A DNA stretch of 35,807 nt, taken from contig RFIF01000294.1 in NCBI GenBank assembly GCA_003695655.1, positions 1 through 35,807 of the forward strand, written 5' to 3'. Source of the stretch: Cyanobacteria bacterium J069. GTDB lineage: Bacteria; Cyanobacteriota; Cyanobacteriia; Elainellales; Elainellaceae. The notes below the pieces were generated by a model that was not told where the DNA came from, did not search any database, and saw only the letters and a program-made list of their open reading frames with translations. The translations under genes were made by a program, and so were the position numbers. Positions 424 through 11,908 of this stretch are shown here, piece by piece. Position 1 is the first letter of the stretch. Every line of letters begins with the position of its first letter.

Positions 424-551
424 GGGATATTCTCCGATAAAGCATGTATTAACGATGTTTTTCATCAGCCTGGGCGATCGCCGTAGCGAGCCTCTCAGCG
501 ACGCCTATTTAGCATCCGGCTGAATGAGCGGGCTAGACCTTAAAGGCGGCT

Positions 552-1271
552 TTAAGGATCAGGAAACTGGGGCTGCCACCACTGATGCCAGTCGGCCCAG
601 ACGGCTTTGAGCTGTGGATAGATTTGTTCAGGGGAAGCCGATTGGAGCGGAGTAGACAGAACTGTCCACAGGCAGCGGCCATCGCGCAAAGTCTCCCGAC
701 CCAGCAACACAGGCAGTGCGCGCTCCGGTCGCAAATCAAGAGCATAGCGGTTCTGCATAAACTGGGCTTCGGTGACGGTGCTAGATCCCCGTGGGTTGAT
801 GCAACTGGTGAGATAGGCGTGGGTTTCGTCTGAGTAGATGCTGTAAAAGCCGCCAGCCTCATCCTGCTGAATAGTAGATGGGAAGGGAGCGGTGAGTGTC
901 GGCTTGCCATATTTCAGCAGTAAATTGCGAACGCTGGGGTCGGTGTTGACGAGATAGCGAATTTCTACGTCTAGTGGGCGATCGCCCTGCATATAGCGAT
1001 AGCTTCGCCCTGACCTCATTTCTGCCTGGGCCTTTTCAGGAATCGGTAGAACTGTTGAATACTGAGATTGCCAGCCAGGTAGTGGCACCGTTTCTGGGAA
1101 AGTGAACGAGACGGCTGCCCGCCCCACTGCTTCGGGAAATAGCAGCAGGCGTCCCAGCACAACCAGCACACCGCCAAAGGTCAGCGCCAGTAGTGGCAGC
1201 CGAAAGGATTTCGCAGTCAGATTTGCAGTCATGAACCTTGCAGTTGCAAAAAGAACTATGGCTCTTGCCAT
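552..1271 (-). CDS. cyanoexosortase A system-associated protein
   Basis: 239-aa ORF with an N-terminal hydrophobic segment and a FPETVPLPGWQ region, directly downstream of and overlapping the exosortase ORF. Identity rests on context and sequence resemblance. Confidence 0.75.
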   Translation of the reverse strand: MARAIVLFATARFMTANLTAKSFRLPLLALTFGGVLVVLGRLLLFPEAVGRAAVSFTFPETVPLPGWQSQYSTVLPIPEKAQAEMRSGRSYRYMQGDRPLDVEIRYLVNTDPSVRNLLLKYGKPTLTAPFPSTIQQDEAGGFYSIYSDETHAYLTSCINPRGSSTVTEAQFMQNRYALDLRPERALPVLLGRETLRDGRCLWTVLSTPLQSASPEQIYPQLKAVWADWHQWWQPQFPDP

Positions 1272-2245
1272 TCAATCGGGTCATCTGGCAGCATTCCGCC
1301 TTCTGCCGGGTCATCCATGTCATCAGCCAATTCTGCCCAGTGCTCTGAGGCCTCTTGCCAGCGCAATAGCAACCAGCACGCTCCACCAAAAACCAGCACA
1401 GCAATCATTGAAAAGATCAGCGACCCCGTACCCTCATGCCAGTATTCAAAAGCCTCGGGACGAGAAGACGCGACCAAATATGCCATCAGAGACACGCGCA
1501 CCCCATTTACTCCAAACGCAATCAGCGCTGATAACATGACAGCCAGGATGCGGCGCAGCCAGCTCAGCGGAAACATCACCACAAACAGCCCCGCCAGCGA
1601 CAGCAGGTAAGTTATGCCCTCAATGCCAGAGCAGCCGGGATAGACCTCGACCGATCCAGTCGTGAGATGGATATTCACGCCGTCTCGCACTACCTCAAAC
1701 CCGCCATACCAAAGCAGTACCGTCGAAAATTTGGCAGTCCAGAGTGTGGGGTCAAACAAGGGTGGAAGGAAGACCTTGGGTGCACCCAAAAACAGAAGCA
1801 ATAATAGTTCTTGCCAGTACTGCTTCAGTCCTTTGAAGCCGGACGCCATCAGTGCTAACCCTAACCCAGCGGTTAGAGGGGCTAAGAGCATAAAGGCTTC
1901 ACCAGGGAGGGCCAGGCTGCGCAGCAGGACAAACGCCGTGAGCAGCGCCCCGACAAGGCTGGCAGCTATGCTGCTGTCAAACCGTAGGGTGTGCTGGCGA
2001 TCGCCCAACAGCGACGCCAGCGCTGCAAAAAAGAGAATGCTGCTGCCCAGCAAATCGACATTGTCGGCTCGCCAAACCAGGGTCAGGTGAATTGCGGCTA
2101 GCCCAGCAGCGATCGCCACTAGCCAAAACCGGAATTCTTTTACATGTCTGAATTCCAAAGATGGGAACGCTTTCATATAAACGGCTAGAGAGGATTCAGC
2201 GCACGATGCTAGTGTGCCCAGCCGCGATCGCTTCCTAACAGACAC
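1256..2245 (-). CDS. crtA: cyanoexosortase A (multi-pass membrane transpeptidase-like); start uncertain, possibly internal Met near 2176
   Basis: Exosortase catalytic signature: Cys in VYPGCSGIEG, Arg in NGVRVSLMAYL, His in EYWHEGTGSLIF, with multiple TM segments. Confidence 0.88.
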   Translation of the reverse strand: MSVRKRSRLGTLASCAESSLAVYMKAFPSLEFRHVKEFRFWLVAIAAGLAAIHLTLVWRADNVDLLGSSILFFAALASLLGDRQHTLRFDSSIAASLVGALLTAFVLLRSLALPGEAFMLLAPLTAGLGLALMASGFKGLKQYWQELLLLLFLGAPKVFLPPLFDPTLWTAKFSTVLLWYGGFEVVRDGVNIHLTTGSVEVYPGCSGIEGITYLLSLAGLFVVMFPLSWLRRILAVMLSALIAFGVNGVRVSLMAYLVASSRPEAFEYWHEGTGSLIFSMIAVLVFGGACWLLLRWQEASEHWAELADDMDDPAEGGMLPDDPIEWQEP

Positions 2246-2740
2246 AACATTTGACGCAAATTACCCCAGAAAATCCTGTCTATTGCATCTAAATTGCATG
2301 TTTAAAGCACCAGTTTGCACAAGCAATTTGAAGGCATTGGTGAAAAATACGGTCAATTTGTGTCGGTACAACTTGCGGCATTCGATCATGTCTAAGCTCA
2401 GCACTACCTTTTCCACCCTGCAACCAAAAGCCACCAATCGTCTACCCATGGCTACTTCCAAAGCAGCTCTAATCCAGCGCAGCCAATAATTGTCTTCATC
2501 AGAGTGTCTTCCTCATTAAAGCCACACAAAACTTACACAGTTTAAGGAGAAAATGCACTGATTCAGCCCCTTTTACGAGCAGAAACTCGTACGTAATCTC
2601 CCGCTGTTTGTCCAGGTTTGGCAGATGTTACACCAAGTGTAGACAGTCATTGATCTTGCGATAAACCTACTGGTCTGGTTTTCTTAGTCTAGTTTTCTGT
2701 TGACTGTCGAACAGAGAACCTCAGGAATGGAGCTTGCTGG

Positions 2741-3556
2741 ATGGACAGCGTTAAAATTCTGAACGTGCAAATTGATAACCTGTCAACACAGGAGTTGCTC
2801 GAAAAGCTCACCAGCGGAGTGGTTTACACTCCCAATGTGGATCACCTGGTAAAACTCCAAAAAGACCCATCCTTCTTTAAGGTCTATAGCGCTGCGGACT
2901 ATCGGGTTTGTGATAGCAAGATCTTGATGTATGTCTCCCGATTCTTGGGAGCACCCATCCAAGAAAAAATTTCTGGGTCAGATCTGTTTCCTGCGTTTTA
3001 CGAATATCACCGAGACAATCCCGATATTCGCATCTTTTTGCTAGGGGCAAAAGAAGGGGTTGCTGCCGCCGCCCAGCAGCAGATCAATCAGAAAGTGGGA
3101 CGCGATATTGTGGTGGCAACCCACTCTCCTACGTTTGGGTTTGAGAAAGACGAGCAGGAGTGCGATCGCATTCTCAGCCTGATTCGTGAGTCAGGCGCGA
3201 CAGTGCTCGCCGTGGGCGTAGGCGCACCCAAACAGGAGCTGTTCATCCATAAATATAAAGACCAATTGCCCAACATCAAAATCTTTTTGGCAATCGGGGC
3301 AACGATCGATTTTGAAGCTGGTAACGTCAAGCGATCGCCCAAGTGGGTCAGCGAAGCCGGACTGGAGTGGCTCTATCGCCTCACCTCAGAGCCAAAGCGG
3401 CTGTGGCGGCGCTATTTAATCGAAGATCCGCTGTTTTTCTGGCTGGTGCTACTCCAAAAACTGAACGTTTACACCAATCCCCTGAGGCAGACCTCAAGCG
3501 ATGCTCTGGAGCGGATGGATTACAGTAGTCCCCGTGAGGCTCTAGCAACCGAGTAG
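2741..3556 (+). CDS. WecG/TagA/CpsF family glycosyltransferase
   Basis: 271 aa; VVYTPNVDHLVKLQKD, DSKILMYVSRFLG, FLLGAKEGVAAAA, VGVGAPKQELFI, AIGATIDFEAGNVKRSPKWVSEAGLEWLYRL are typical of the family. Confidence 0.93.
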   Translation: MDSVKILNVQIDNLSTQELLEKLTSGVVYTPNVDHLVKLQKDPSFFKVYSAADYRVCDSKILMYVSRFLGAPIQEKISGSDLFPAFYEYHRDNPDIRIFLLGAKEGVAAAAQQQINQKVGRDIVVATHSPTFGFEKDEQECDRILSLIRESGATVLAVGVGAPKQELFIHKYKDQLPNIKIFLAIGATIDFEAGNVKRSPKWVSEAGLEWLYRLTSEPKRLWRRYLIEDPLFFWLVLLQKLNVYTNPLRQTSSDALERMDYSSPREALATE

Positions 3557-3674
3557 CCCTCCAGAAATACTGCTTCTTCCAGCAAAAAGCAAAACGCTAC
3601 AAAATCCTGCGCGGTGATGCTGTGCAGGATTTCGTCTATCCTGCCTCTTCCTCCTGCCCGCTGCTCCCAAATCA

Positions 3675-5168
3675 TTACCACTCGTCATCATCATCTGTAT
3701 GATAAGAACCTGACGGTTCAGCCGCTTTGCGGGTGGGCTGAAGAAACTTTTCGTAGGGGGATACCGTGGGCAAGAGTTCCAACTGGGGCGATCGCCCTCG
3801 TTCCGTCTTGACCCGACGGCGACGCGACACCCCTTCTTCGGTCGTTTCCTCCGCTACCACTTCATAGAGAATCGCCTGCTTGTCCCCGTCGCCTCGTCGC
3901 AGCACTCGCCCCAACCGCTGGATATATTCTCGGCTTGAACCAGTGCCCGACAGAATGATGGCAATGCGGGCATCCGGCACATCCACGCCCTCATTTAGCA
4001 CATGAGAAACTGCCAGGGTTTGATAGGTGCCTTCACGGAACTTTTGTAGAATATCGTGACGTTCTTTGACTGGGGTTTGATGAGTTAACGCTGGAATCAA
4101 GAACTCTTTGGAAATGCGGTAAACCGTGGCGTTGTCGTTAGTAAAGACAATCGTGCGATCGGGATAATGCTGTGACAGCAAGTCGGTGAGGACGCGCAGT
4201 TTTCCTTCAGTACCGAGGGCGATCGCCCTGGCTTCCCGGTGGGCTAGCATGGCGCGCCGTCCTGCTTGCGACTGGGCGCTGAGCCGCACAAACTGCTGCC
4301 ACCCTGACAGGCTACCCAGAAATACCTTATGCCGTTCGAGAAACGCATTACGGGTTTCGATCAAGCTTGTATAGCGATCGCGCTCCTGCTGCGACAGTTT
4401 TACCTTCACCTGCACAATCTCGTGGTGCGCCAGCGCATGACCCGAAAGCTCCTCTGCGGTGCGGCGATAGACCACTGGGCCCAGCAGGATGTCCAAATCC
4501 GCATGGCGACCGTCGCTGCGGTCTGGCGTGGCAGTTAGCCCCAGACGATACGGGGCGATCGCGTATTCAGCAATTACCCGGTTAAAATCGCTGGGCAGAT
4601 GGTGACACTCATCGCAGATCAGCAGCCCGTAGCGGTTGCCCAAAGACTCGGCGTGAATAGCGGCACTGTCGTAGGTGGCGATCAGGATCGAAGTGCGATC
4701 GCGCGATCCGCCCCCCAACAGCCCCACCTCCGCATCGGGAAACGCCGCCAGTAGGTGGGCATACCACTGGTGCATCAAATCCAGTGTCGGCACGGTGATC
4801 AGGGTGCTGCGCGGCGTTGTCTGCATCGCCATCTGCGCCAGATAGGTCTTGCCCGCCGCAGTCGGCAGCACCACGACGCCCTGTCGCCCTGCCGCTTGCC
4901 ACGCTGCCAGGGCTTCCTGCTGGTGTGGATAGGGCTGCCGCTCAAAGGCTGTATTCAGCGTAATTGGCTCAAACGCCTTGGCCTCGTCTGCAAACGCGGT
5001 TCCTTCTGCCCGCAGACGCTCCACCAGCGGACGATACTGAATCGCGGGCACCCGAAACCGCTCTACCCGGTCATCCCAAGTTGCAAAGTCTACCCAAGAC
5101 TTGCCCCGAGGCGGCGGGTGCAAAATCAGCGTGCCCCGATCAAATTTGAGGACGGGCGTGCGGGCCAT
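3675..5168 (-). CDS. DEAD/DEAH box superfamily II helicase (XPB/SSL2-like)
   Basis: Walker A-like VVVLPTAAGKTYLA, DECHH box, LGLTATPDRSDGRH, and helicase C motifs GVDVPDARIAIILSGTGSSREYIQRLGRVLRRG. Start trimmed to MARTPVLKFDRGTL at 5168. Confidence 0.92.
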   Translation of the reverse strand: MARTPVLKFDRGTLILHPPPRGKSWVDFATWDDRVERFRVPAIQYRPLVERLRAEGTAFADEAKAFEPITLNTAFERQPYPHQQEALAAWQAAGRQGVVVLPTAAGKTYLAQMAMQTTPRSTLITVPTLDLMHQWYAHLLAAFPDAEVGLLGGGSRDRTSILIATYDSAAIHAESLGNRYGLLICDECHHLPSDFNRVIAEYAIAPYRLGLTATPDRSDGRHADLDILLGPVVYRRTAEELSGHALAHHEIVQVKVKLSQQERDRYTSLIETRNAFLERHKVFLGSLSGWQQFVRLSAQSQAGRRAMLAHREARAIALGTEGKLRVLTDLLSQHYPDRTIVFTNDNATVYRISKEFLIPALTHQTPVKERHDILQKFREGTYQTLAVSHVLNEGVDVPDARIAIILSGTGSSREYIQRLGRVLRRGDGDKQAILYEVVAEETTEEGVSRRRRVKTERGRSPQLELLPTVSPYEKFLQPTRKAAEPSGSYHTDDDDEW

Positions 5169-5280
5169 GCAGTACGCTTGTTTTACCTGAGTGATCTGCC
5201 CGTATTGTACGTCAGAGACGCCATTCCGTTTTAGACTGGAGGATGCTCGGATAAATGTGCTGTTTTCAAAGAAGACACCT

Positions 5281-6006
5281 GTGCGCAAAAAGGTTATTGC
5301 TGGCAACTGGAAAATGTATAAAACCCAGTCAGAGGCTCAGGAGTTTCTGCAAGGGTTTTTGAAGCATCTGACGGAGACACCGGAGGATCGAGAAGTCGTT
5401 CTCTGTGTTCCTTATACCGATCTTTGGCTGCTGTCTAAAAACCTGCATGGAAGCCGAATTCGGCTGGGTGCGCAAAATATCCACTGGGCATCGGAAGGAG
5501 CCTATACTGGGGAGATCTCTGGCCCGATGCTGGCGGAAATTGGCGTGCGCTATGTAGTCGTGGGACATAGCGAACGCCGCCAGTACTTTGGCGAAACGGA
5601 CGACACAGTAAACCTGCGCCTCAAGGCGGCTCAAGAATTTGGGCTGACACCGATTCTCTGTGTGGGCGAAAGCAAGCAGCAGCGCACTACTGGGCAGACA
5701 GAGCCATTTATCTTTAACCAGCTTGAGAATGACCTGATTGAGGTTGATCAGTCTAACCTGGTGATAGCCTATGAGCCGATTTGGGCGATTGGCACGGGGG
5801 ATACCTGTGAGCCTGACGAAGCAAATCGTGTGATTGGCCTGATTCGCAAACAAATCGACAATCCCAATGTACCGATTCAATATGGTGGTTCTGTAAAACC
5901 TGACAACATTGATACCATCATGGCGCAGCCAGAGATTGACGGTGTTTTAGTGGGTGGGGCCAGCCTAGCGCCCGACAGCTTTGGGCGTATTGTAAACTTT
6001 CAGTAG
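5281..6006 (+). CDS. tpiA: triosephosphate isomerase (GTG start)
   Basis: [59 protein letters not shown]. The track ORF begins upstream at 5191; the homologous start is GTG at 5281. Confidence 0.97.
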
Positions 6007-6057
6007 TTTGTTTTGCTCCTACTTCTAGAATGACATCGCTTTTAGCATGGCATCGCG

Positions 6058-6092
6058 AAAAGAGAGCCAGAATGTTGCTCTGGCTCTCTTTT
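6058..6092. terminator. bidirectional-looking intrinsic terminator downstream of tpiA
   Basis: Perfect stem AGAGAGCCAGA (6061-6071), loop ATGTTGC, TCTGGCTCTCT (6079-6089), flanked by A-run left and T-run right. Confidence 0.85.
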
Positions 6093-6112
6093 GTGCGATT
6101 GATCAACAGGGA

Positions 6113-6205
6113 GGGCGTTGCTGAATGACGCTATGATTTCGTCGGATTGAGGACAGAGTCTCAAGGCTTTCAGAAACTATTTCATAGACCGATTCAGCAA
6201 CGCCC
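6113..6205. mobile_element. MITE-like palindromic element (93 bp)
   Basis: Terminal inverted repeats GGGCGTTGCTGAATgacgCTATGA (6113-6136) and TCATAGaccgATTCAGCAACGCCC (6182-6205); 20/24 positions match as inverted repeats. Flanked by AGGGA at 6108-6112 and 6206-6210. Confidence 0.65.
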
Positions 6206-6218
6206 AGGGAGTATTAAC

Positions 6219-7169
6219 CTACGCTGAAGCTTCTTGCTTCTTGCGACGGCGACGAGTATACATTAGACCAGCGGCGATCGCCGTTCCAGCCATTGTGGTG
6301 GGTTCGGGCACTGCTGTAGAACCTGCCATCACAATGCCGTCATTGCCGCACTCTGCAAACAGGCTCGCCATGAAGTTGCCGACTGGCAACAGGCTGCGAT
6401 CGACGCTGAAACCAAACGTGTAATTACCTGTGGCGCTAAAGTTGCCGAAGTTCAACCCCAGTGCCCTGAAATCAGCAGCTCCTAACATGTTGATGCCGCC
6501 CAGATAGCTGCCCGACTTCATGTTGGTTTGAGCGGCCGTGTTGTAAGCAAAGTAGGAGTTGTTTGCATCCAAATCGCCCAGAGAAGCAGAACCACCGACT
6601 TTCGCAACTTCGGTCGTATGCTGCTGGTGGCTGCTATAGCCAGAGTTGACGTTGGTGAGGCTGTTGGTCGTGACGCCGCCATACAGCCCCAGCGGGCTGG
6701 TTCGAGTGGTTTTGGTGACTTTTGCCCTGCCCCTGCTGTCAATCGTGCGAGTTTCGGTCACGACCTTTACGTTGGTGTCGTTGGTGCTGTCAAACCGGAT
6801 GGCAAACAGGCTGCTCTGAGCCGCGTCGAAGCTGGCAGTGTTGGTGAAGTTCAATACCAAATCGCCGTAGCTGATCTTCTTATTTCGGGCACCATCCAGA
6901 TCGTAACCATTCAGGGACAGATTCGAGTTGATCGCAAAGACCACACGATCTTCTAAAACACGGAAGGCCATGCCAAAGAACTCAAAGTCGCTGTTTTGCC
7001 CGACGACCAAACGCTTGTTGGTAGCATCCCACTCTGTTCCGTCGTTGAACGAGTCGATTGCGTAGTTCCAGCCACCAACCTGAAATGCTTGGGCTTGGGA
7101 ACCGGTCAATGCCAGAACGCCCAGCGTAGCAGCGGTGCAGAGAAGAGTTTTGAATGCTTGCAGTTTCAT
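6219..7169 (-). CDS. PEP-CTERM exosortase-dependent surface protein (XDD3-like family)
   Basis: N-terminal signal peptide MKLQAFKTLLCTAATLGVLALTGSQAQA; C-terminal VPEPTTMAGTAIAAGLMYTRRRRKKQ = PEP motif, hydrophobic segment, basic cluster. Confidence 0.85.
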   Translation of the reverse strand: MKLQAFKTLLCTAATLGVLALTGSQAQAFQVGGWNYAIDSFNDGTEWDATNKRLVVGQNSDFEFFGMAFRVLEDRVVFAINSNLSLNGYDLDGARNKKISYGDLVLNFTNTASFDAAQSSLFAIRFDSTNDTNVKVVTETRTIDSRGRAKVTKTTRTSPLGLYGGVTTNSLTNVNSGYSSHQQHTTEVAKVGGSASLGDLDANNSYFAYNTAAQTNMKSGSYLGGINMLGAADFRALGLNFGNFSATGNYTFGFSVDRSLLPVGNFMASLFAECGNDGIVMAGSTAVPEPTTMAGTAIAAGLMYTRRRRKKQEASA

Positions 7170-8281: not shown

Positions 8282-8442
8282 GGGGCTGAGTGCTTTTGGT
8301 GTGGTTGAAGTGTGGCGATCGCGCTGCTTAAGATGAAGGGGTATCCAATTCTGGATTTCAGAGTGGTGACTTTGGATTGCCAGTCACAAGTCTAGTTTGT
8401 ACCTTCTGGCTCAACTCCAACTTATGCGGGAGACCTCAGCAG

Positions 8443-9045
8443 ATGAAGACAAAATTTTCCGATTGGGCGGCAGCGCTTTTGACCTTATCAGGAGTTGCAG
8501 GGGTAGTGCTGACTGGGCGATCGCCTGCCACGGCTGTGCAACTGGCGGACGGCACCGTGTATTTTGAACAGCCGCCCAGCTTGATCGACTATGCAACCAC
8601 CCGCACGACTACCTTTGCCCCCAATGCTACCTATTATTTCACCGTGTCTCTGCCGTCGAATGCCGGAGAACCCCTGGAGCGAGTGACCATTGAGCAGCGC
8701 GACAGCAGCACTCTTGCCCGTCGAGTTGATTACCGAGTTGACGCAACCTATGCTTTTGTGGGGACGCGCCAAAGCCAGGGCGATTCTCGGCGATCGCTGC
8801 CGCTGGGGACGGTGGCATACGATAGAGATACACAGGCGATCGCCATCACTTTTGACCCGCCCGTGCCGCCTGGAACCACCGCAACCGTGGCACTGCGCCC
8901 CCGGCGAAATCCTCAACTCGACGGCACCTATCTATTTAGAGTCGTCGCCTTTCCGCCAGCGCCAGAAAATGGCAGCGCCCACGGGCAGTTTCTCGGATTT
9001 GGGCGCTTGCGCTTTGATCGTCCTGAGTTTTTTCGATGGTGGTAG
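8443..9045 (+). CDS. DUF2808 domain-containing protein with signal peptide
   Basis: MKTKFSDWAAALLTLSGVAGVVLTGRSPATAVQLADGTVYFEQPPSL, YYFTVSLPSNAGEPLERVTIEQ, TYLFRVVAFPPA...GFGRLRF. Start trimmed from the track ORF. Confidence 0.75.
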   Translation: MKTKFSDWAAALLTLSGVAGVVLTGRSPATAVQLADGTVYFEQPPSLIDYATTRTTTFAPNATYYFTVSLPSNAGEPLERVTIEQRDSSTLARRVDYRVDATYAFVGTRQSQGDSRRSLPLGTVAYDRDTQAIAITFDPPVPPGTTATVALRPRRNPQLDGTYLFRVVAFPPAPENGSAHGQFLGFGRLRFDRPEFFRWW

Positions 9046-10271: not shown

Positions 10272-10619
10272 TCACATTGCCAGTTGCTTGACGTGGTCGA
10301 GCATCTGCATCCCATGCACGAGGGATGCACCACCCCGAATTGCGGTCGCCACATGAAGCGCCTCTGTCATCTGTTCCAAATCGGCTCCTTGCTGAAGACT
10401 TTCTTTGCTGTAGGCATCAATGCAGTAAGGACACTGCACGGTGTGGGCAACGGCCAGCGCGATTAGCGCTTTTTCGCGAGCCGACAGCGCGCCGTCGGCA
10501 AACACCGCCCCATAGTAATCAAAAAATTTCTTGGCTAGCTCAGGGTTGCCCTCTGCCACTTGACCAAAATTAGGGAGATGCTCAGGCTGATAGTAATGAC
10601 TCATGGGAAACTCTTGCAA
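10272..10619 (-). CDS. arsenosugar biosynthesis-associated carboxymuconolactone decarboxylase/peroxidase-like protein
   Basis: 115 aa; ALIALAVAHTVQCPYCIDAYSKESLQQG (CxxC of the AhpD/CMD fold) directly upstream of arsS on the same strand. Confidence 0.8.
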   Translation of the reverse strand: MQEFPMSHYYQPEHLPNFGQVAEGNPELAKKFFDYYGAVFADGALSAREKALIALAVAHTVQCPYCIDAYSKESLQQGADLEQMTEALHVATAIRGGASLVHGMQMLDHVKQLAM

Positions 10620-10936: not shown

Positions 10937-11191
10937 ATGACAAATCCTTCTCCTCATAAATCGGCTCCCGAACGTGGCTCCATGATTGCCAACGGCGGCG
11001 GCAACGTCAACCAGGCTGGCGGCAACGTGACCACGACGACCACCACCAATTACAACTTTGTCTTTTTCATCATCGGACTCGTGGCATTGGGCGGGCTGGC
11101 CTGGGCGCTAAACCTCGGCAATATCCAAGGGGGCAACTCTGGCCAGACGACAGCTCCACCTGTCACCAGTCCAACTGCCTCGCCTGAGTAA
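10937..11191 (+). CDS. small single-pass membrane protein, unknown function
   Basis: 84 aa; NGGGNVNQAGGNVTTTTTTNYNF then TM-like VFFIIGLVALGGLAWAL, low-complexity Thr/Pro/Ser tail. Co-oriented with the next ORF. Confidence 0.6.
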   Translation: MTNPSPHKSAPERGSMIANGGGNVNQAGGNVTTTTTTNYNFVFFIIGLVALGGLAWALNLGNIQGGNSGQTTAPPVTSPTASPE

Positions 11192-11287
11192 GCCTCACGC
11201 TTTAGAGAGCCTCATGCGATGTCAATTCGGCAAACTTACACAGCGCCAGGCCAATTCCGATCAAACCTAGCTTAGGAGAACTCAGCC

Positions 11288-11908
11288 ATGCTGACCAAGC
11301 CGCCGCAGCATGACCCCGCTGCGGCTCAGGTTGCCTACGCGGGCAAAAATCTGATTCAGGTCGGTGGAGATTACATCCGCTATATTCAGTTCAACTTCAA
11401 GACCGGGAACTGGGGCGTGGCGATCGCCAACCTCGCCATCCTCGGTCTAATTTTCTACGGTCTGGCGGAAGGCATCAACCGGGCTGCGTCAGTGGCGATC
11501 GCCCTAGTGCTACCTGAAACGAACCCAGAAACATTTTGCACCCGCTCAACCCAGCAAATCGAAACCCTGAACCGGGAACTGGATCAGCTCCGGCAAGATG
11601 TACGGGCAATTCCCGTGGTAACTGGCCCACCCGGCCCACAGGGTATCCCCGGAGAACCTGGCCCGCCTGGCCCGCCCGGTGCCGTCGGGCCGCCCGGCCC
11701 TAGAGGCGCACAAGGGCCCCCAGGCGGGCAGGTGATCATTCGAGAACCCGTGCCCTCATACCCTGAACGGCCCGATTTAGAGATGCCTGAACCATCTGAG
11801 CAGCCAGCGCCAGATTCCCAAACCGGGGCAGGCACTACGTCTCCCGGTGACCTCGTCACCAACCCGCCAGTTGTGGACATTCCCCGACGCGGCCCTTTAG
11901 TTCGCTGA
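11288..11908 (+). CDS. membrane-anchored collagen-like (Gly-X-Y) protein
   Basis: 206 aa; TM-like segment, heptad-like [18 protein letters not shown], then [33 protein letters not shown] (11 triplets, nt 11624-11722) and a Pro-rich tail. SD-like TAGGAG precedes the ATG. Confidence 0.82.

Follow-up and report, generated by a model that had tools for sequence, protein, structure and literature searches.

Two neighbouring cyanobacterial genes, here called A and B, encode small predicted membrane proteins that carry the same tandem-heptad motif at their N-termini, and the pair is conserved as a cassette in other cyanobacteria. They lie in the window, the whole 35,807-nucleotide stretch of DNA that was analysed. 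In the preferred reading, to which an even chance is given, A and B would make up a two-protein inner-membrane signalling pair that co-assembles through the motif, with B as the sensor and A as its partner or effector. The motif is kin to the N-terminal motifs of a group of NACHT gene pairs, and the part of B beyond the membrane is exchanged between relatives, a collagen-like tract being one of several forms.

Genes A and B and their common N-terminal module

The cassette consists of two open reading frames on the same strand separated by 96 bp, much as the original prediction had it (about 95 bp). The features of the pair are as follows.

10937..11191, + strand: gene A, small membrane protein of 84 aa with the motif, one transmembrane (TM) segment and a short Pro/Thr/Ser tail
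10982..11038, + strand: motif block of A, 19 columns, MIANGGGNVNQAGGNVTTT (profile A9, permutation test)
11060..11116, + strand: TM segment of A, VFFIIGLVALGGLAWALNL, residues 42-60 (ALGGLAW kept in the family)
11288..11908, + strand: gene B, collagen-like membrane protein of 206 aa (ORF, Pfam, homologues)
11327..11383, + strand: motif block of B, including the tetrad IQVG (alignment, permutation test, profile A9)
11411..11467, + strand: TM segment of B, residues 42-60 (AlphaFold model, alignment)
11525..11605, + strand: periplasm-proximal helix/coiled-coil region of B with Cys84 at its head (AlphaFold helix 80-106, pLDDT ~90; alignment)
11624..11722, + strand: collagen-like tract of B, 11 Gly-X-Y triplets, residues 113-145 (Pfam PF01391, residues 113-146)
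11735..11905, + strand: Pro-rich C-terminal tail of B (alignment: unconserved beyond the genus)

Compared with the complete genome of a relative in the same genus (G001), dN/dS is ~0.27/1.54 for A and ~0.13/1.48 for the N-terminal part of B, and the differences fall mostly at third codon positions; both are therefore real genes under purifying selection. No terminator-like site was found between A and B or directly 3' of the pair, and no promoter-like site on the + strand at A/B. Upstream of the cassette lie an arsenosugar biosynthesis-associated peroxidase-like gene (10272-10619, - strand; TIGR04169, 174 bits), which adjoins the cassette in G001 too, and a gene for a DUF2808 protein (8377-9045, + strand; PF10989, E=4e-42).

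Neither A nor the N-terminus of B belongs to a family in Pfam or NCBIfam, in keeping with the first reading of the sequence. A has no Pfam match at all, and the only Pfam match of B is to Collagen, at E=7e-6 and 26.1 bits against a cut-off of 27.2; no NTPase domain is found in B by Pfam. In NCBIfam the collagen tract alone is matched, by the SclB and Lcl models, at 21.7 and 20.6 bits against cut-offs of 325-500, and by these cut-offs B is not an Scl/Lcl-type adhesin. The likeness of B to the collagen-like adhesins Scl1/Scl2 and Lcl is confined to the Gly-X-Y tract; B differs from them in having an N-terminal signal-anchor-type TM segment rather than an LPXTG or secretion signal, in being paired with A and in having a tract that can be replaced.

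The N-terminus of A, GGNVNQAGGNVTTTTTTNYNF, is rich in Gly, Asn and Thr and precedes the TM segment. An N-x-x-Q-x-G-G-[N/D] motif had been proposed ahead of both TM segments. A common motif is indeed there, but it is longer: aligned on the core Q, A and B share Q-x-x-x-A-G-[RK]-[ND]-[LV]-x-Q-[VA]-G-[RG]-[DN]-Y, a block of ~19 residues made of two tandem heptads, such as AGRDLIQ-VGRDYIR. This block scores 27.2 between A and B, where permuted columns give -15.1 +/- 5.4 and reach 9.1 at most (n=20,000), and A and B from the same cassette score higher than cross pairs (31.05 against 26.97, p=0.007). In profile-profile comparison by hhalign the first profiles align with a probability of 94.5% (E=7.7e-8), and profiles of 19 sequences each reach 97.3% (E=2e-11) over 52 columns that include the TM segment. 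Searched against the whole genome, profile A9 finds the A block at E=2.1e-4 and the B block at E=1.4e-8, values that are not independent because the profile was built with the window's own A and B sequences. Taken together, the alignments show homology of the two N-terminal modules, which are paralogous over ~50 residues, the TM part weakly so; the pair was first described as paralogous on a shorter motif, and over this stretch that description holds. The distance matrices of A and B are correlated (Mantel r=0.51, p=5e-5), as shared ancestry alone would lead one to expect, so the correlation supports joint inheritance and is no proof of contact. A search of 291 genomes at the DNA level with the pattern Q-[TIAV]-G-R-D-Y was dropped, as almost all its matches were due to chance, often in Ser codons or in mid-protein.

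Both proteins are predicted to be N-in bitopic proteins of the inner membrane, with the motif in the cytoplasm. Lys and Arg residues around the TM segment number 28 before and 17 after it for A, and 39 before and 32 after it for B, a weak positive-inside bias.

The cassette in other genomes and the kinship of its motif with that of NACHT gene pairs

Relatives of B came from G001 and G015 in the first searches, and next from Mastigocoleus, the filamentous cyanobacterium CCT1, Scytonema and Myxacorys. A profile of the B N-terminus matched 18 of 390 genomes from the class, including one false positive, a polytopic membrane protein in G013; three order-wide matches (G022, G027, G028) were set aside as collagen-only similarity. 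Run on the same genomes, the A profile finds an A gene less than 1 kb from B in thirteen, and in G387 the two span overlapping contigs; nine of these 14 genomes lie outside the training set of the A profile. In G157, A can be read from the sequence directly upstream of B. Counting also the two cassettes of G204, those of Mastigocoleus and Scytonema, the divergent pair of G161 and a plasmid of Acaryochloris, the pair is present at ~20 loci, and A adjoins B in nearly all of them, which bears out the original description of a two-gene membrane cassette with conserved adjacency. A precedes B in the cassette, with two exceptions, G204 (contig 199) and Acaryochloris, in which B comes first. B stands without a recognisable A in G026, in G274, where the motif is degenerate, and on a plasmid of Anabaena cylindrica; G062 holds the remnant of an A/B fusion. 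No relatives of A or B were found on viral contigs.

Some of these loci have features of their own. A natural fusion in G235 (~1093-1668, L061) joins an A-type N-terminus and TM segment to an Ig/FxLYD-like ectodomain that, by eye, resembles the ectodomain of the G294 B. On the Anabaena plasmid pANACY.03 (6824-7627, L186), the B-like N-terminus follows repeats of the IQGDHN/IQGNDN/VIGDSN type and precedes a long coiled coil, and in place of A the gene upstream encodes a membrane protein with pentapeptide repeats.

Several cassettes have neighbours of conflict type. The order B-A-vWA(TerY)-PP2C-kinase is found both in G204 (449-6910, L078) and on the conjugative plasmid pREC4 of Acaryochloris marina MBIC10699 (6548-12509, L185). 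Thus B-A sits immediately upstream of the TerY-P triad (vWA, PP2C, kinase) at these two loci, but most other cassettes lack the triad, which is also absent beside A/B in the window. The B proteins of G204 and pREC4 carry an N-terminal extension of ~150 aa with repeated [ST]PW[KR][VL]-like segments, which are possibly substrates of the linked kinase. In G112, the pair is followed by nSTAND5-like and nSTAND1 genes.

A wider connection comes from the motif itself. Below E=1e-3 a motif-only profile returns only members of A/B, yet its weak tail of proteins with N-terminal QIGQAGRDLTQ, individually non-significant, led to a recurrent pattern in which the gene for a protein of ~140-150 aa directly precedes a larger gene whose product shares its N-terminal motif. 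The larger partner contains a NACHT domain (Pfam) in six cases (G135, G019, G111, G008, G030 and G011) and is a PDZ/TM protein in G118. Such pairs also recur in G007, G047 and G070; the loci in all ten genomes are among L156-L164, L169-L175 and L181-L182. The small protein, of ~150 aa and helical, typically has SQSIS..GQIGQAGRDLxQ at its N-terminus and ..APWLGVAA at its C-terminus, and two of the examples tested with PADLOC match PDC-M14B (E=1.9e-9 and 1.3e-6).

Compared with the A/B motif by hhalign, the profile of this NACHT-pair motif (A10) reaches a probability of 96.6% (E=5.7e-10), and it beats column permutations for both B and A (p<=5e-5); the likeness is limited to the first heptad, the second scoring negative. 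A10 also matches the B protein of G026, which lies outside its training set, at E=1.2e-8. There, a PDC-M14B-like protein is encoded immediately 5' of B, so that B occupies the slot of the NACHT protein. By profile comparison, then, the A/B motif is related to the N-terminal motifs of NACHT/partner pairs, a kinship that speaks for a signalling or conflict system and less for pure envelope structure. The two kinds of pair have in common a small motif protein 5' of a larger one and the sequence QxGxAGRDLxQ; they differ in that the small partner of the NACHT pairs is helical, longer than A and without its TM segment, and in that the second heptad is mostly absent. A10 has no match in the window's own genome (86% complete) or in the complete genome of G001, so the cassette can stand alone and needs no such NLR.

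The ectodomain of B and the question of an envelope stalk

The B protein of the window does have 11 Gly-X-Y triplets followed by a Pro-rich tail, as first described, and the tract is retained in its close homologues. None of the three outcomes that the original prediction named as refuting it, namely N-termini that fail to align, genes that are separated in relatives and a tract lost from close homologues, was observed. Collagen-like tracts are present in 14 B proteins, with 8-56 triplets in those measured, and in 10 of the 14 a cysteine heads a coiled coil that precedes the collagen. This order would fit a rod of three chains, possibly linked by disulfides, on the far side of the membrane from the cytoplasm; trimerisation and surface exposure of B are predictions. 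In other B proteins the tract is replaced. Those of G026 and G218 share a Cys-rich region read here as SPOR-like (it has no Pfam match), the G026 protein also giving a weak SH3_3 match below the curated cut-off (E=0.0036), and those of Scytonema, G133, G294 and Myxacorys/G274 end in other domains. The ectodomain of the Myxacorys protein has a beta-rich AlphaFold model with no PDB match at E<=0.001, and no function is inferred for it. To judge from these sequences, the C-terminus of B is an exchangeable module, with collagen as one form among several, and a plain secreted collagen adhesin was rejected as the definition of the family because the tract is replaceable.

The original prediction saw in the pair a surface or envelope stalk complex. 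The membrane pair stands, but the stalk is too narrow a description, as collagen does not define the family and the motif is kin to that of the NACHT pairs. A structural role in the envelope is nevertheless the strongest of the alternatives, if on balance a rather unlikely one: A and B would co-assemble in the inner membrane through the motif, and the trimeric coiled coil and collagen rod of B would serve as a periplasmic spacer or stalk with no part in signalling. The collagen-type proteins, mostly with conserved Cys, coiled coil and collagen in that order, are as such a stalk would need them, and SPOR- and SH3-like modules, which are often peptidoglycan-binding, would suit an envelope protein. 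On the other hand, the patchy distribution of the cassette (18/390 genomes) fits an accessory signalling or conflict function better than housekeeping structure, and the locus beside TerY, PP2C and kinase genes on a conjugative plasmid, the exchange of ectodomains and the motif link with the NACHT pairs all argue in the same direction.

A candidate motif-based signalling pair

In the preferred reading, that of a signalling pair, the short N-termini of A and B, predicted to be cytosolic, both carry the tandem-heptad motif, and the motif of B would bind and template that of A. This homotypic or heterotypic co-assembly would probably be of beta type and possibly amyloid-like, as in RHIM and BASS3. 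The exchangeable C-terminus of B outside the cytoplasm, whether a collagen-like stalk, SPOR/SH3-like or another beta domain, may sense or cluster at the envelope, and A would be the small membrane partner, most likely the effector or output. Such an arrangement would parallel the cyanobacterial pairs of a small protein and a NACHT protein, with a membrane sensor in place of the latter. It would also bear out, as a supported inference, the proposal that the NxxQxGG segment is an assembly module.

The amyloid-like nature of this assembly is plausible. The tetrad [IV]Q[VILC]G occurs in 15 of 21 B proteins and in one of 19 A proteins, and the RHIM core, G-(I,V)-Q-(I,V)-G (PMC7885112), accommodates the IQVG of B; the Frankia BASS3 peptide contains VQVGDGN (PMC8086366). 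As in RHIM, PP and BASS3, the [IV]Q[VI]G core of B is followed by D/N-Y and hydrophobic residues, with G and N/D as turn residues. The A/B motif differs in its tandem 7-residue repeat, in the T/N rather than I/V before Q in A and in its spacing: G-[RG]-D after the Q-x-G core of B is one residue short of the spacing in RHIM and of the G-x-x-N of Frankia BASS3. There is no significant profile match to these motifs, and the B profile, searched against the sequences of the PDB, gave chance TM-like matches only. A/B is a candidate rather than an established member of BASS3/RHIM and, by analogy, would work like a motif-pair system of adjacent genes.

The N-terminal module could instead be an amphipathic helix on the membrane surface, or a targeting element, with A and B associating through their TM helices. 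AlphaFold gives the B motif a helical model (residues 22-38, pLDDT ~80), though a single chain cannot decide on a polymeric beta fold, and both proteins have conserved residues at the TM segment, ALGGLAW within that of A and GNW ahead of that of B. However, the counterpart in A is rich in Thr and turns (VTTTTTTN), the Chou-Fasman propensity, a crude measure, is higher for beta than for alpha in 21/21 B and 16/19 A segments, and the same motif is found at the N-termini of soluble-type NACHT proteins, on which membrane targeting would be odd. The membrane-helix explanation is improbable. Least probable of all is a toxin/antitoxin-like or abortive-infection pair with A as a small pore-forming toxin and B as its inhibitor or trigger: A is tiny with a single TM segment, the cassette is patchy and at times adjoins conflict genes, and a PADLOC phage-defence-candidate protein takes the position of A in G026, but PADLOC matches neither A nor B, the PDC-M14 models included, and the second gene mostly encodes an elaborate ectodomain protein, not a small antitoxin.

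Amyloid signalling pairs have been described in fungi and in filamentous bacteria, including cyanobacteria (PMC7889193), so the principle of paired motifs is already known and A/B is not claimed to be categorically new. The NLR-associated pairs (BASS/Bell-NLR, and fungal HET-S/NWD2 and HELLP/PNT1) resemble A/B in their adjacent genes, in a common terminal motif of ~20 residues and in combining a small membrane-linked partner with a larger sensor, and the same motif in two adjacent genes across genomes is what A/B presents as well. In contrast with those pairs, both A and B carry the motif at the N-terminus, both are predicted bitopic membrane proteins and B has an exchangeable ectodomain, collagen or other, with no NACHT or NB-ARC domain, amyloid formation being hypothetical for A/B. 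Neither partner is an NLR (NACHT, NB-ARC or nSTAND), the component by which the known bacterial pairs are defined: NACHT is found only in the related pairs and nSTAND only in adjacent genes, as in G112. No account of collagen-like proteins with the A/B motif or of the cassette was found in the open-access literature searched, which is weak evidence but agrees with the early suggestion of an undescribed system, and the cassette itself is real and conserved.

The function of A/B is a prediction. A tentative and somewhat doubtful extension of it is that amyloid-type signalling in bacteria would have a branch with transmembrane receptors, to which the pair belongs: a sensor facing the envelope, often with a collagen stalk, would take the place of the cytosolic NLR and pass its signal through the membrane by templating its N-terminal, RHIM-like motif onto a very small effector in the membrane. 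It has been asked in reviews of amyloid signalling whether motifs of this kind serve bacterial proteins or pathways that are independent of NLRs (PMC7889193). A/B is a concrete candidate: the pair is compact (~84 and 206 aa), modules are exchanged, fusions occur in nature and a putative membrane sensor stands where the NACHT partner would be. If this is true, some bacterial collagen-like proteins would gain a signalling instead of an adhesive role.
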